The translations under genes were made by a program, and so were the position numbers. From assembly GCA_030684395.1 (NCBI GenBank), contig JAUXTT010000033.1, positions 1 through 45,709 of the forward strand: DNA of 45,709 nucleotides, given 5' to 3'. How positions within the stretch are numbered: position 1 is the stretch's first letter; each line of letters opens with the position of its first letter. Source of the DNA: Bacteroidota bacterium. GTDB taxonomy: Bacteria > Bacteroidota > Bacteroidia > B-17B0 > Aurantibacillaceae. A model generated the notes under the pieces. The model saw only the letters and a list, made by a program, of their open reading frames with translations, had not been told where the DNA came from and searched no databases. Positions 2,852-12,370 of this stretch are shown here, piece by piece.

Positions 2852-5227
2852 TTACAAGTTAAGCCCAATAATACAAACGTCATCGACCTGTTCAATTCCC
2901 GATTTCCACTCTTCAAATTTTGAATTCAGAATTTCTTTTTGTTTAACCATTCCTTCAACAGAAATTTCGAGTAGCAGCTCTTCCAACTGCTTGTATTTAA
3001 ATTTTTTTCCTTTTGGCCCACCAAACTGATCGGCATAACCATCCGTAAACAAATAAAACGAAGTTCCCTGAACATAAGGAATAACATGGGTTGTAAACGG
3101 AGTAGGGTTATCTGTTTTACCTATTGGCTGTTTGTTGGCTTTGACTTCAACAAGTTCAGTCGGGCTTTCGTTTTCTTTTGCAGGGCAAGTGTACCAAAGT
3201 GGATTGTTTGCCCCGCTCCAGTTTACTTCTGACACCTCTCCATTTTTTCGGATAACTGCAAGCATACTGATATCCATTCCATCTTTCACATCGCTGCTGC
3301 TTTTAGAGAATGTTTCTAACACCAATTCGCGTGTTTTATCCAGGATCTCTCCTGTGTTTGTTAACTTAAATTCCAATACCGCCCTGTTTAATGCATTACT
3401 ACAAACAACCGAAACCATTGCCCCGGGAACTCCGTGGCCTGTACTGTCTGCAGCTGCTATGAAAGTTATTTCCTTCTCATCCTTAGTTACAACTTCCATC
3501 CAATAAAAATCCCCGGCTACTAAATCTTTTGGCGTATATAAAATGAAATTATTTGGTAATTGTTTATCAACCGCTCCCTGTGCAGGAAGAATTGCTTCCT
3601 GTAATCGTTTTGCATAAGTAATACTGTCCAAAATTTCTTTTTGTTTTTCTTCAACTAAGTGCTTTTGGCTTTCTACTTCATTCTTTTGTGCAGTTATTAT
3701 ATCCTTTTGTTGCGCCAATTCTTTATTGATCTGTTTCCTGATAATATTGGACCGAACAACAAAGATCATAAGGATCCCGAAAATAATAGCTCCGAAAATA
3801 AATAGTGAGATCGTGTTTTCTCTGTTTGATATTTCCGCATCCTTTGCTTTTATCTTAACATCATTCATCTCCTGATCTTTTTGTAACATGGTGATCTTTT
3901 TCTCTTGCTTAACCGTTTCATATTTCATAGCAAGTTCCGCCAACTGAGCAGCCATGTTATCCTTGTTATTTGCATTAGCCTTTGTGAAGAGCTCATTCAA
4001 CACCGTCATTTCCATATACCTGATATTTGACTGATATCCGGTTAAAGTAGTGTATACCGTTGCCAATGGTTCATGATTAAAATTGGCATTCTCCCATGTT
4101 TCAATTTCTTCATCCCTGTTTTTAACATCGCTAAAATTAAAAGGATTCGATTGTTTAAGCTGAAGTGTATATTCTTCAGGAACGATCGAATCAAGTACTT
4201 TGATAAAGGTCAGCAATTTTGTTTTCAATTCTTTAGCTGTATTTGGGCCATCTACAGGGTTGTTAGCATCATCTCCTATCAACATATGCGTAGGAAAATC
4301 ATAATTTGTTTTTTGCATTATATTATCAAATGAGATCGAGTCCCTTGCCGATTCAGCTAAGCCATCCGTTTGTATAACCAGGTCGGTTTTAAGTTTAAAT
4401 ATATAATCATTGCAATAGTTCGTGAGCGACTTGAGTTCCTGAGCCTTATTCTTCAGCTTTACAAAAGAGCTATCCTTATTCCCGGATTTCTCAAATGCTT
4501 CGTAAAGGAATTTATTTTTTGATTCATATAAACGCAGGTTATTCTCTACACTCAATTGTGTTTTATTATCAGAAGCAAATCGTGTATTAGCTTGTTTCAT
4601 ACTCGCTATTCCGCTGAGAATATAAGCGATCATAAAACCAAAAATAAATGTGATGTTAAACGAAAAATAATTTTTCTTCCTTCTGAAAAGCAAAGTAATT
4701 AGCCCGAATGGGATCAGAATATACAAACCAATATTAAAAGTTAAGTTCGTAAGAAGAGTCCCGCCCGGCCAATGCATTACTTTGAATTGATGCATTGCGA
4801 GCATTAAACCCAGGGTGGTGCAAAAAACAAAGCTCAGGATCCGCTGATACCAATCACTTTCTTTAAAATTAGCAACATACCAAGCGGGAACAAAATTCAA
4901 ATAAAAGACCATACAGCCTACCACAATGATAGGACCCGCACCCGGTAAATGCCAAAGTTTTAGGAATACGCCTATCATTATAAATGATAAACTAAAGATC
5001 CCGATATTATTTACGATCTGATGCTTGTTTTCGAGCTTGTTTCCATACAATTTGAAAGTTAAGATAGGGAAGTACACAAGGGTTAATATCAACATCGATC
5101 CGATTACCGATATCCAGCCAATGCTCTCCATTGCTTCAGAAGTAGAAAAAATGCCGCAAACTGCACCAATAATGCCCAACAATACAAATAAGCCGGGAAT
5201 TTTTGGATCGGTAATTTTAAGTTTCAT
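2852..5227 (-). CDS. Polytopic membrane sensor with SpoIIE-type PP2C phosphatase output
   Basis: The ATG at 5227 (791 residues) is preferred; an in-frame ATG nine codons upstream adds only a polar stretch. The N-terminal ~210 residues hold six or seven membrane spans with two related motifs, LKLWHLPGAG (89-98) and FKVMHWPGG (148-156), which resemble the HWPGAG segment of the gliding-motor protein GldL. Next come a ~250-residue helical region, a further transmembrane segment (near 475-500), a coiled coil, and a C-terminal SpoIIE/PP2C domain with AGDFYW, AADSTGHGVPGAM, FTDGYADQFGG and EQVDDV metal motifs. The catalytic domain is very close to that of the next gene (shared TRELVLETFSK), which suggests tandem duplication with exchange of the sensor half. 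The membrane part is not a known sensor family to me. Confidence 0.88.
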   Translation of the reverse strand: MKLKITDPKIPGLFVLLGIIGAVCGIFSTSEAMESIGWISVIGSMLILTLVYFPILTFKLYGNKLENKHQIVNNIGIFSLSFIMIGVFLKLWHLPGAGPIIVVGCMVFYLNFVPAWYVANFKESDWYQRILSFVFCTTLGLMLAMHQFKVMHWPGGTLLTNLTFNIGLYILIPFGLITLLFRRKKNYFSFNITFIFGFMIAYILSGIASMKQANTRFASDNKTQLSVENNLRLYESKNKFLYEAFEKSGNKDSSFVKLKNKAQELKSLTNYCNDYIFKLKTDLVIQTDGLAESARDSISFDNIMQKTNYDFPTHMLIGDDANNPVDGPNTAKELKTKLLTFIKVLDSIVPEEYTLQLKQSNPFNFSDVKNRDEEIETWENANFNHEPLATVYTTLTGYQSNIRYMEMTVLNELFTKANANNKDNMAAQLAELAMKYETVKQEKKITMLQKDQEMNDVKIKAKDAEISNRENTISLFIFGAIIFGILMIFVVRSNIIRKQINKELAQQKDIITAQKNEVESQKHLVEEKQKEILDSITYAKRLQEAILPAQGAVDKQLPNNFILYTPKDLVAGDFYWMEVVTKDEKEITFIAAADSTGHGVPGAMVSVVCSNALNRAVLEFKLTNTGEILDKTRELVLETFSKSSSDVKDGMDISMLAVIRKNGEVSEVNWSGANNPLWYTCPAKENESPTELVEVKANKQPIGKTDNPTPFTTHVIPYVQGTSFYLFTDGYADQFGGPKGKKFKYKQLEELLLEISVEGMVKQKEILNSKFEEWKSGIEQVDDVCIIGLNL

Positions 5228-8942: not shown

Positions 8943-9076
8943 TTTTGTCCGTTTCGGATTTTTTTGTGAACAATGATTTAAATTCGGGTCCTATACCTCT
9001 ATTGGCAACAAGGTTAAGCGAGGTCAAAGATATTACAATAATTCCGTTCCAAAACTGTTTCTATCTCTATTTTAGT

Positions 9077-9084
9077 TATTTTTG
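9077..9084 (+). promoter_or_regulatory. Possible -7 box for the 942-residue T9SS protein
   Basis: TATTTTTG fits TAnnTTTG and ends 8 bases before the ATG at 9092. The transcript would be leaderless or nearly so. No clear -33 TTG is at the expected spacing. It also argues that the longer frame opening at 8945 is not used. Confidence 0.35.
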
Positions 9085-9091
9085 TATACCT

Positions 9092-11920
9092 ATGAAATCC
9101 ATTTTATTTTTTCTTTTATTTACATCACTATCGCTACGTTTTTGTGCTCAATCCAATATTGGAGGTATAATAAATAATTATACTCCGGTTATTTCGCTCA
9201 GTTGTAATACTGTAACTGTTACAAATGCTTCAGCATTTTCTATTGGTGACAGGGTTCTTATCATCCAGATGAAAGGCGCAAAAGTGGATTCCAGTAACAC
9301 AGCTACTTTTGGGACTATCTTAAGTCTCGATGATTGTGGCAATTACGAATTTGGAAACATTACATCCATTTCAGGAAATATTATTTCGCTTCAATTTCAG
9401 CTTTTAAACAGTTATACTCCTTCTGGACTTGTGCAACTGATAAGAGTTCCTCAATATACTGATGCAACAGTTGTTTCTACCCTTAACCCAATGGCATGGA
9501 ATGGAAGTATTGGAGGCGTCCTTGTTTTTGAGGTTTCAGGAAAACTCACTTTAAATGCTCCAATAGATGCTAATGGTAAGGGATTCAGAGGAGGTACTCA
9601 ATGTGCTAATCCTGATGGTGGTTGCGGCGCAGGATACTCTTCCTATTATTACAACATATCATCCGGGTTTGGAGCAGAAAAAGGCGAAGGTATTGCAGTA
9701 TTGAGTGCAAATAAAAGTGGGGGTCGTGGGTCAATAGGTAATGGTGGTGGTGGTGGCAACAAACATAATTCCGGTGGTGGTGGTGGTGGTAATTACAGCA
9801 CTGGTGGAAAAGGAGGCGACCAGGCTAATTTCTGTGCTTCTTCTTCAGTTGGAGGGATCGGTGGTAATGGATTAAACTATACAGCCAATAAAATGTTTAT
9901 GGGAGGCGGAGGCGGAAGTTCAGATTATAATAATGGTGTAGGTTCTTTTGGAACGAATGGTGGCGGGATCATCATTATTAAAGCCGATACGCTCATAGGT
10001 GGAAACAATGTAATAGCATCAAAAGGACTGGATGTGAACTTGATTAACAATGGTATTGGTGATGGGGCAGGAGGAGCAGGAGCCGGTGGTACGATCCTGC
10101 TTCACATAACAGAATACATTACTAATTTAACCGTTGAAGCAAATGGTGGTCATGGTGGCGATCAAAACTGTACCTACCCGGGTTGTTTTGGTCCCGGTGG
10201 TGGTGGTGGAACAGGTGCGATCTGTTTTTCATCTGCTTCTACACCCATAAATGTTTCTACGTTTACTTTATCTGGTTTAGCCGGTATGGATACTTATTCT
10301 GGATCACCTTGCTTTAATTCAAATTTTGGTGCTGCTGACGGCCAAAGCAGTAACGGAGTTTTATACAACCTTACCTTACCCGAAAGTGCCACTATCATTA
10401 ACGACCCCATTGACCTCGGAAATGATACTACCTTATGTTTAGGGCCTGTTACTCTTGATGCATTTCTTGCCGGTGCAACCTATATGTGGTCAACGGGCAG
10501 CACAAGTTCTTCTATTGTTGTAAATACAGCAGGAATGTATTTTGTAGACGTCAGTGTAGGTGGGTGCATTTTTCATGACACTATTAATATATTTAGCGGC
10601 CCGGCAGTACCAACCCTACTTGGAAATGATACTACACTATGTATAGGACCTGTTGCTCTTGATGCATTTATTGCCGGTGCAACCTATATATGGTCAACAG
10701 GTAGCACAAATTCTTCAATTGTTGTAAATACAGCAGGAATATATTTTGTAGATGTCAGCTTAGGTGGATGTGCTTTCCATGACACTATTAATATTTTAGG
10801 CAGCCCGGCAGCACCAAACCTACTTGGAAATGATACTACCTTATGTTTAGGACCTGTAACTCTTGATGCATTTATTGCCGGTGCAACCTATATGTGGTCA
10901 ACAGGCAGCACAAGTTCTTCCATTGTCGTAAATTCGGCAGGAATGTATTTTGTAGACGTTAGCACAAGTGGATGTACTTTTCGTGACACCATCAATATAT
11001 TGGGCAATTCAGGGGCATTAAGTCAACTTGGAAATGATACTTCCCTTTGTGGCTCTTCATTAACGCTAGATGCAAGTTTTGCAGGAGTATCTTCTTACTT
11101 ATGGTCTACCGGTGAAACCACTCCAATTATTTCAGTAAATGCTGCCGGTACCTATTGGATAACCACTCAGCTTAATGGTTGCAACACCTCAGACACCATA
11201 CATATTTTTCCACCTTCAGTCATTTCACTTGATCTTGGAAATGACACAGTAGTATGTAGTTTTCCCGTTACATTAAATGCTGCGAATACAACCAGCTCTT
11301 ACCTGTGGTCTACCAATGAAGTGAGTCCGACCATTTCGGTTAATAGCTCCGGATCATACTGGGTTACTGTAAGCACCAATGACTGTGCATATACCGACAG
11401 CGATACTATCTCAATAAATTTAACATCGACAGGCCCTTTATCTACTGACAATGATACAATCATCTGTGGAGATCCAATCACTTTGAGTGTAAACTATCCG
11501 CGGGCGACAGATTACCTTTGGTCAACAGGAGAAATAACGCCATTTATAAACATTGCGGATGAAGGTATATATTGGGTGCAGGTCATTCAGGATAATTGTG
11601 TGAATATAGATTCGTTTGAAGTAAAGGGATCTATAAGTGGAGGAGAATTATATGTTCCTAATGCATTTACACCGGATTCTGACCATCTCAATGGGGTGTT
11701 TTATGCCGAAGGCGAATCAATAATAACCTTTAGCATGAAAATATTCAATCGTTGGGGTGAACTGATTTTTGAAAGTAATAAACAAGCTGAAGGATGGGAT
11801 GGAACTTATAAGGGCAAGTTAGTACAATCGGACACTTATGTGTGGATCATTGATTACGTGTCAGATTGCAATTATCAGGCAAGTCAAAGAAAAACAGGAA
11901 CTGTTATGGTTGCAAGATAA
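9092..11920 (+). CDS. Large secreted T9SS (type B) protein with glycine-rich region and six tandem modules
   Basis: The start is set at the ATG at 9092 (942 residues), because MKSILFFLLFTSLSLRFCAQ is a signal peptide; the frame is open from 8945, but those 49 codons look non-coding. After an N-terminal domain comes a glycine-rich section (roughly nt 9550-10220, runs of GGGGG), then six modules of about 68 residues that begin LGNDTTLC or similar, contain a YxWSTG core and end in GC. Modules 1-3 are nearly identical. The C-terminal ~85 residues are a type B sorting domain (LYVPNAFTPDSDHLNGVF, FNRWGELIFES, W-D-G-T). It should be exported and attached or released by T9SS, perhaps as an adhesin. 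No enzymatic motif was seen. Confidence 0.88.
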   Translation: MKSILFFLLFTSLSLRFCAQSNIGGIINNYTPVISLSCNTVTVTNASAFSIGDRVLIIQMKGAKVDSSNTATFGTILSLDDCGNYEFGNITSISGNIISLQFQLLNSYTPSGLVQLIRVPQYTDATVVSTLNPMAWNGSIGGVLVFEVSGKLTLNAPIDANGKGFRGGTQCANPDGGCGAGYSSYYYNISSGFGAEKGEGIAVLSANKSGGRGSIGNGGGGGNKHNSGGGGGGNYSTGGKGGDQANFCASSSVGGIGGNGLNYTANKMFMGGGGGSSDYNNGVGSFGTNGGGIIIIKADTLIGGNNVIASKGLDVNLINNGIGDGAGGAGAGGTILLHITEYITNLTVEANGGHGGDQNCTYPGCFGPGGGGGTGAICFSSASTPINVSTFTLSGLAGMDTYSGSPCFNSNFGAADGQSSNGVLYNLTLPESATIINDPIDLGNDTTLCLGPVTLDAFLAGATYMWSTGSTSSSIVVNTAGMYFVDVSVGGCIFHDTINIFSGPAVPTLLGNDTTLCIGPVALDAFIAGATYIWSTGSTNSSIVVNTAGIYFVDVSLGGCAFHDTINILGSPAAPNLLGNDTTLCLGPVTLDAFIAGATYMWSTGSTSSSIVVNSAGMYFVDVSTSGCTFRDTINILGNSGALSQLGNDTSLCGSSLTLDASFAGVSSYLWSTGETTPIISVNAAGTYWITTQLNGCNTSDTIHIFPPSVISLDLGNDTVVCSFPVTLNAANTTSSYLWSTNEVSPTISVNSSGSYWVTVSTNDCAYTDSDTISINLTSTGPLSTDNDTIICGDPITLSVNYPRATDYLWSTGEITPFINIADEGIYWVQVIQDNCVNIDSFEVKGSISGGELYVPNAFTPDSDHLNGVFYAEGESIITFSMKIFNRWGELIFESNKQAEGWDGTYKGKLVQSDTYVWIIDYVSDCNYQASQRKTGTVMVAR
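10415..11230 (+). repeat. 204-bp tandem coding repeat
   Basis: The LGNDT codons of modules 1-4 begin at 10415, 10619, 10823 and 11027, an exact 204-base period. Modules 1-3 are nearly identical in DNA over about 170 bases; module 4 keeps the period but has diverged. Modules 5 and 6 follow at the protein level. This pattern points to recent unit duplication or gene conversion in the surface-exposed part. Confidence 0.9.
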
Positions 11921-11931
11921 AAACGAATTGT

Positions 11932-12291
11932 TCACCTGAATAACTGAACAAAACCTTTATACTCCAGTTTGGAGGCATTAACGGTTAGTTGAAGAATATA
12001 AAAATAGGTTCCATCTGAGCAGGGCATTCCTGAAGTTGTCCGTCCATCCCACCATTGATTGATTTTGTCGCTACTATACATTTTCACCCCAAAACGGTCG
12101 TAGATTTCCACAGAATAACTTTGTGTTTTGCTTTCGAAAGTCATTATAGGCTTAAAAACATCATTCACTCCATCCATGTTTGGTGTAAAAACATTTGGAA
12201 CTTTAATACTATCCTGCAAGGTTTGTGATTTTACTGATATAAAACCCAAACAAAAGATAAAGGCGATATAATATTTAATCAATGCTTTCAT
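11932..12291 (-). CDS. Small secreted protein consisting of a T9SS type B sorting domain
   Basis: The start is the ATG at 12291 (119 residues), opening the signal peptide MKALIKYYIAFIFCLGFISVKSQ; the frame is open further upstream only through a repeat element. Almost everything after the signal peptide is a gliding-motility-associated C-terminal domain: VPNVFTPNMDGVNDVF near 30-45, a YDRFGVKMYSS segment, then W-W-D-G-R and a final GFVQLFR. There is practically no passenger. It converges on the 942-residue T9SS gene, with 11 bases between stops. It could be a remnant of a larger adhesin or a genuine minimal T9SS substrate. Confidence 0.8.
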   Translation of the reverse strand: MKALIKYYIAFIFCLGFISVKSQTLQDSIKVPNVFTPNMDGVNDVFKPIMTFESKTQSYSVEIYDRFGVKMYSSDKINQWWDGRTTSGMPCSDGTYFYILQLTVNASKLEYKGFVQLFR

Positions 12292-12328
12292 TTTCAAAAT
12301 ACTAAGGTACAAAAAATTACAATACACC

Positions 12329-12370
12329 TTAACCACAAAGAGTACGCAATTTGTCGCGTAGATCACTAAG
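12329..12370 (-). repeat. Dispersed intergenic repeat, copy 1
   Basis: Read on the minus strand this is CTTAGTG, 23 bases, then CTTTGTGGTTAA. The same two blocks, 24 bases apart, occur at 33830-33872 on the plus strand. The inner bases are only partly alike but both contain TTGCG. It lies between phbB and the small sorting-domain gene. Confidence 0.55.

Follow-up and report, generated by a model that had tools for sequence, protein, structure and literature searches.

Relatives of the T9SS motor proteins GldL and GldM joined to a SiaA-type phosphatase in a predicted membrane receptor of Bacteroidota

GldL is the wheel and GldM the axle of the T9SS motor. As judged from sequence comparison, relatives of both motor halves, in the order of their operon, are joined to a SiaA-type phosphatase in a single protein encoded in the window, the whole stretch of 45,709 nucleotides of Bacteroidota DNA analyzed here. 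An earlier, sequence-only reading of the window had proposed a fusion of a GldL-like membrane module with a SpoIIE phosphatase and knew of no description of such a protein. In the literature we searched, a limited coverage with preprints and most subscription papers outside it, none of the listed titles and opening lines of abstracts described GldL/GldM-phosphatase fusions or like proteins either.

Organization of the fusion protein

The open frame at 2852-5227 of the minus strand had been delimited exactly, and its features are given in Table 1 together with the gene downstream. Hydropathy, loop charges and the structural models suggest an N-in topology in which three hairpins (residues 9-182) are followed by one span at about 187-213, by a domain in the periplasm up to about residue 470 and by a return span at 473-491, with the coil and the phosphatase inside the cell. 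The full AlphaFold model was obtained with 25 sequences (pLDDT 75.2) and a model of the sensor alone, comprising 435 residues, with five (pLDDT 70.9); the membrane parts of both are of modest confidence. A comparison of residues 1-210 with GldL had been suggested, and a membrane module is indeed present there; the sensor half is larger than had been described and takes in a GldM-like domain as well.

Table 1. Coordinates of the fusion gene, its encoded features and the adjacent gene in the window
Feature	Position	Strand	Residues and remarks
Fusion gene, whole	2852-5227	minus	791 aa, ATG at 5227; GldL-like hairpins, GldM-like span and D1, return span, coil, PP2C
Extra N-terminal hairpin, without HWPG motif	5042-5203	minus	residues 9-62
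GldL-like hairpin 1	4865-5026	minus	residues 68-121, K90 to P114
Motif LKLWHLPGAG, turn between two spans	4934-4963	minus	residues 89-98
GldL-like hairpin 2	4682-4852	minus	residues 126-182, K149 to P173
Motif FKVMHWPGG	4760-4786	minus	residues 148-156
GldM-like membrane span, predicted to lead into the periplasm	4589-4669	minus	residues 187-213; alignment with 7sax and 6ys8 starts at the span
GldM D1-like domain (GldM_1st), predicted periplasmic	3986-4546	minus	residues 228-414
Return membrane span	3755-3811	minus	residues 473-491
Long helix flanking the return span on both sides	3590-3964	minus	residues 422-546
SpoIIE/PP2C domain	2861-3466	minus	residues 588-789
Downstream gene, TPR domain, span and PP2C	883-2850	minus	ATG 1 nt past the fusion stop

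The extra N-terminal hairpin recurs in the fusion of locus L013, and the other nine complete fusions start at hairpin 1; the HWPG-type motifs of the window protein thus sit in the turns of its second and third hairpins, corresponding to hairpins 1 and 2 in the numbering of the shared family. Two copies of a (W/M)H(L/W)PG(A/G) motif had been announced for residues 89-98 and 148-156, and both are found within these limits, as WHLPGA at residues 92-97 and MHWPGG at 151-156. They had further been assigned to the start of membrane spans, a placement that we revise, as hydropathy, loop charges and helix breaks in the models apparently put them in the periplasmic turn between two spans. Shuffling of residues 1-213 produced at least one motif copy in 3 of 200,000 trials. 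Among 1,595 ORFs of the fetched loci the broader motif K..H[WYLF]P[..] occurred 103 times versus 1.15 times expected from shuffled ORFs, an excess that arises partly by choice, because the loci had been fetched with the GldL/sensor family as bait and include some duplicates; a single one of the 67 ORFs bearing it falls outside the GldL/sensor family. A chance motif is ruled out by these two tests. An assembly artefact is likewise ruled out, since separate assemblies yielded eleven distinct proteins that share this domain order.

Elsewhere in the window, a short frame at 412-873 may encode an IS200/IS605-type transposase, and 8945-12366 holds two surface-protein genes whose ends resemble C-terminal domains of the gliding/T9SS type.

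Relationship to GldM

The Pfam family GldM_1st matches the window protein at residues 228-414 with 76.2 bits against a cut-off of 25 (E 4.5e-21), and it exceeded this cut-off in all ten fusions searched, that is, all except L042. The NCBIfam model of full-length GldM, TIGR03517, aligned with residues 231-428 only and with 39.5 bits (E 3e-10) stayed far below its equivalog cut-off of 180. A profile search of the PDB with eight fusion sensors returned, at E up to 0.1, nine distinct sequences, eight of them GldM or PorM and one GldL; the best match, GldM 7sau_A (E 1.6e-16), starts within the membrane span. Fold searches yielded nine GldM/PorM entries for the sensor-only model (Z 14.9-20.8, the next row at 8.2) and eight for the full model (Z 18.1-21.4), and a library of viral structures gave no match at E up to 0.001.

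The fusion thus shares with GldM/PorM (TIGR03517, PF12081) a single span followed by the helical domain D1, for which solved structures match at Z of about 15-21, but it lacks D2-D4, and its chain recrosses the membrane to reach the PP2C domain. The order of hairpins followed by GldM span and domain is that of gldL and gldM in their operon. A tree of D1, in which three rows were wrongly labeled, namely two GldL sequences admitted by mistake (L036_545, L024_2334) and a GldM (L028_607), required three label changes, one of them forced, and is compatible with one origin.

Two further proteins bear on the GldM family. The nearest that we saw to a one-chain GldLM is encoded at L164 1261-2934, where an HWPG-like hairpin is followed by GldM_1st (110.6 bits) and GldM_2nd (45 bits). 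The window genome itself holds a second full-length GldM paralog (L012 1270-2964; G000, C43), with no GldL gene in the surrounding 3.5 kb.

Distribution and association with T9SS

The full fusion (profile positions 2 or 5 to 431, frame 689-808) was found in 9 of the 395 sampled genomes of the class, from five families, and is set off from the remaining matches by a gap in score from 387.7 to 211.3 bits. Genome G011, of the same family, contributed a tenth and L042, of a named assembly, an eleventh distinct fusion; a fusion fragment lies at a contig end in G002 (L014). Siblings spanning the hairpins and the GldM domain occur in at least 32 of the 395 genomes, as counted by hand among the matches listed (those starting at profile position 10 or before and ending at 340 or beyond, without the nine fusions; four candidates scored per genome), and in six of the 32 (G436, G473, G690, G029, G010 and G650) the sole match of this kind is interrupted by one or two stop codons. 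None of the siblings fetched contains a PP2C pattern.

Several siblings (L010, L017, L146, L147 and others of L145-L165) are proteins of about 410-430 residues in which a soluble N-terminal part precedes the HWPG hairpins and the GldM-like D1, again without PP2C; in L010 the soluble part had no Pfam match over cut-off. A PadR regulator gene lies beside L010, L017, L146 and L147, the four loci scanned, which had been picked for a visible candidate, and by eye none was seen at L145 and L163. At L022 1069-3598 and L160 531-2955 sibling genes are arranged in tandem, the longer of each pair with three HWPG hairpins, and by eye the GldM-like span (LLAMNVSKDIL type) is kept in all four. The proteins of L176-L179 (381-403 residues) consist of a soluble N-terminus and two HWPG hairpins, and for L176-L178 the listed profile match ends after the membrane part. 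In L180 2161-3579, finally, the 472-residue product of the gene seen in part as L017 1-867 carries GldL-like hairpins straight on a PP2C domain, with no GldM domain.

SprA was detected in 303 of 395 genomes of a phylum-wide sample and in 383 of the 395 class genomes, among them 8 of the 9 fusion genomes of the latter sample, and a GldM of canonical length is present in 9 of 10 fusion genomes. The exception, G469, has no SprA and no GldM_1st besides that of the fusion itself. It nevertheless contains at least 150 T9SS tail domains (150 of 313 candidates scored), a figure to be compared with 113-150 in six genus mates and 1 each in two SprA-less genomes; it was therefore set aside as an instance of the fusion without T9SS, and the bin probably lacks its core genes. 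The sequence-only reading had held that occurrence in many lineages without T9SS or GldL would speak against it, and among the 395 genomes of the class and the others studied the fusion was seen in none shown to lack T9SS.

A receptor that uses its GldL/GldM-like parts to assemble with, or dock to, the GldLM motor or the partners of that motor in the periplasm, and that informs the phosphatase of whether the motor is in place or at work, would fit both the T9SS-motor origin of the domains and the T9SS carried by the fusion genomes. As SprA occurs in nearly all genomes sampled from the class (383 of 395), however, this co-occurrence is without weight and cannot decide on T9SS sensing. The fusion was found in nine of these genomes only. 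No T9SS core gene was recognized by eye beside the fusions, and among the missing domains D2-D4 is the one, D4, by which GldM meets the GldKN/PorKN ring, according to PMC8986121. We regard such a reporter of T9SS state as possible, but on this evidence rather unlikely.

Relationship to GldL

The kinship of the hairpins with GldL was assessed by aligning profiles of 11 fusions and 17 GldL sequences with hhalign, which gave probabilities of 97.9 (score 61.9) for hairpin 1 and 97.1 (score 53.2) for hairpin 2, compared with maximum scores of 19.4 and 20.8, respectively, in 100 column permutations. When the nine columns of the motif were masked, hairpin 1 still aligned in the same register with a score of 20.5 versus a null maximum of 16.5. 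Hairpin 2 lost its GldL match, 60 of 100 nulls scoring equally high, so that the signal to GldL comes in large part from the motif. Similarity to GldL beyond the short motif, the test that the sequence-only reading had set, is thus found for hairpin 1.

Individual sequences differ in this respect. Our own GldL profile recognized the window protein with an E of 2e-4, and the fusions of L013, L043 and L045 were below significance. With Pfam GldL_N (cut-off 24) the window protein scored 17.8 bits at residues 81-107; among four other fusions scanned L015 passes with 30.8, L144 remains just below with 23.1, and L043 and L013 gave no match at E up to 0.1. In six siblings carrying a GldM domain or PP2C the same model reached 35.8 bits for L010, 44.5 and 53.3 for two proteins of L022, 33.6 for L161 and 27.5 for L017 1-867, and was absent among the matches listed for L164. 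The GldL chain found by the PDB profile search, 7sau_C, matched over 36 residues at hairpin 1 (E 0.013), and GldL was not among the matches listed in the fold searches of the full and sensor-only models.

The proposed GldL-like membrane module is therefore upheld by the profile alignments, by those relatives that pass GldL_N and by the GldM domain that follows, and is weakened by hairpin 2, which fails without its motif, and by the sub-threshold score of the window protein. We consider the kinship to GldL supported, and reinforced by the subsequent GldM domain. Common to the fusion and GldL/PorL (TIGR03513, PF22827) is the two-span hairpin with a turn of the FKxxHWPG type; the fusion differs in having two or three hairpins in tandem within one chain and no GldL cytoplasmic tail.

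The hairpins might instead be generic membrane scaffolding of Bacteroidota having a short loop motif in common with GldL, and only the GldM part would then truly derive from the motor. The behavior of masked hairpin 2 would agree with this, as would the hairpins on a PP2C without GldM domain (L017 1-867, L180) and proteins such as those of L176-L178. That masked hairpin 1 retains its match, that four of the six scanned siblings pass GldL_N with 33.6-53.3 bits and a fifth reaches 27.5, and that the hairpins precede the GldM span and domain just as gldL precedes gldM all argue against it, and we hold it to be improbable.

Loss of the proton-carrying glutamate

For F. johnsoniae GldL, PMC8986121 reports residue E49 to be strictly conserved and essential. 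Counted from the lysine of the motif (K), the corresponding Glu occupies position K+18 in 19/19 GldL sequences of the fetched loci, but in 0/22 fusion and 0/51 sibling hairpins; the former have F, L, G, S, M or A instead and the latter never an acidic residue. Conversely, a Pro six residues further on, at K+24, is found in 22/22 fusion and 47/51 sibling hairpins, but in 0/19 GldL. Note that these counts comprise hairpins recognized by a text pattern, those missing the pattern lying outside, and that hairpins out of register, one among 23 in the fusions and five among 56 in the siblings, were removed. An acidic residue anywhere from K to K+25 occurs in 2 of the 22 fusion hairpins only, at K+12 in both (L013, L016), and the motif Lys and His are kept in 21 and 20 of the 22, respectively. 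In the alignment a Glu lies within or next to the first span of a hairpin in several fusions, for example L015, L043, L044, L045 and L143, and none is present in the spans of either HWPG hairpin of the window protein.

Models of rotation rest on the 5:2 mismatch of wheel to axle, as set out in PMC9389320. A proton-driven rotary motor of this kind requires the two parts on separate chains, and in the fusion they reside on one; a dimer would hold four or six hairpins per two axles instead. Neither rotation nor proton harvest is to be expected, as the Glu is gone and wheel and axle form one chain, and we conclude that the fusion is not a GldLM-type motor. The earlier suggestion of a membrane-energy sensor that still responds to protons can point to the retained Lys and His and to the Glu residues in or beside the first spans of other fusions, but with the proton-carrying Glu absent from all 22 hairpins counted, acids nearly so, and a stoichiometry that would depart from 5:2, sensing in the manner of GldL is not supported and the suggestion as a whole appears very unlikely.

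The phosphatase domain and its modular origin

The SpoIIE phosphatase domain, also part of the original proposal, was confirmed by Pfam PF07228 at residues 588-789 with 46.2 bits versus a cut-off of 25 (E 6.5e-12). Residues D573, D594, D729, D782 and D783, which we take to bind metal ions, are invariant in alignments of 8 and of 25 sequences. The best-scoring solved structure for this part of the full model is the PP2C domain of SiaA from Pseudomonas aeruginosa, 6k4e, with Z 27.4 and 2.7 Å over 242 residues at 29% identity; the equivalog model for SiaA, NF038263, was matched with 138 bits, far from its cut-off of 700. Both proteins are membrane-bound PP2C phosphatases, but SiaA, as drawn in PMC7647112, has two membrane spans and a HAMP domain, unlike the fusion.

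A closer relative of the C-terminal half is encoded next door. The TPR-PP2C protein at 883-2850, one of the TPR-PP2C receptors of Bacteroidota, shares coil, span and PP2C with the fusion, at 48% identity over a C-terminal alignment of 406 columns that begins at about the long helix and runs onward, but has a TPR domain in place of the GldL/GldM part. Given this identity, the GldL/GldM part replaces a TPR sensor on a common effector. By pattern and by eye, no TPR-PP2C gene was seen as direct neighbor at the other fusion loci.

In a quick tree of PP2C domains, with 80 of 104 other PP2C rows drawn at random and 39 of 88 inner branches without support, the 11 fusions fell in several places with seven label changes, at least four of which are forced by supported branches, versus a mean of 10.6 after shuffling. 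This speaks against a single origin of the fusion, and from the scatter of the PP2C parts sensor and phosphatase seem to have been re-paired.

Connection to SiaC

SiaA dephosphorylates SiaC, and its PP2C domain forms a dimer, as reported in PMC7647112. Genes for SiaC were present in all ten fusion genomes tested, with two to eight copies each, and in none of 14 control genomes. Of the six in the window genome, five have a PP2C domain no more than 5 kb away; zones of this kind make up 11.4% of this genome, and the chance of finding at least four of five SiaC loci within them is 8e-4 if the loci are independent. The neighborhood scan covered the fusions of ten genomes, with the neighbors of L042 outside it. 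Two SiaC genes lie directly upstream of the fusion at L044 (genome G473) and one is located 4.1 kb upstream of it in G436; the remaining eight genomes showed no SiaC gene at 5 kb or less from the fusion, contig ends cutting the region in G469 and G702. The presence of SiaC in all ten fusion genomes may be background.

The window genome (G000, 4.87 Mb) encodes 63 SpoIIE domains, of which that of the fusion is the lowest-scoring. It also has two stand-alone STAS proteins, judged by frame length, and one RsbW-like kinase, and these could be alternative partners of the phosphatase. As an observation in its own right, 63 SpoIIE domains stand against six SiaC, two stand-alone STAS proteins and one short RsbW-like kinase in G000, so that a great many phosphatases would converge on a small number of possible partners. 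From its kinship to SiaA and the gene neighborhoods, SiaC is probably the substrate of the fusion.

Proposed mechanism and implications

We favor, with reasonable though by no means full confidence, the view that the fusion is an unpowered, motor-derived and dimeric receptor of the inner membrane that sets the activity of its phosphatase, probably on SiaC proteins. Each chain would contribute two GldL-like hairpins, or three in the window protein, one GldM-like span and a periplasmic GldM D1 domain, and the second span would return to the cytoplasm, where the coil carries the SiaA-type PP2C. A signal acting on the periplasmic D1 or on the packing of the hairpins could shift the long helix slightly and in this way reach the PP2C dimer, which would then dephosphorylate a partner-switch protein, most likely one of the SiaC family. 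Both the dimer and the direction of the signal are features that we infer for this receptor.

Few proton-driven rotary motors besides GldLM are known, and the finding of relatives of both its halves fused, disarmed and placed on a signaling enzyme suggests an exchange of roles between motor parts and receptors. The fusion also offers a single-chain system for studying how GldL-like and GldM-like spans are coupled without the proton residue of the motor. Should it communicate with the T9SS, it would also show by what means such cells monitor the state of this secretion motor. More speculatively, and in our estimation doubtful, a whole class of Bacteroidota receptors and regulators might have been built from GldLM, with wheel and axle on one chain and the proton-carrying Glu removed, and its phosphatase members might keep SiaC partner switches informed of the assembly or torque of the live T9SS motor. 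If true, this would constitute a direct signal line from the motor of secretion and gliding to the behavior of the cell.
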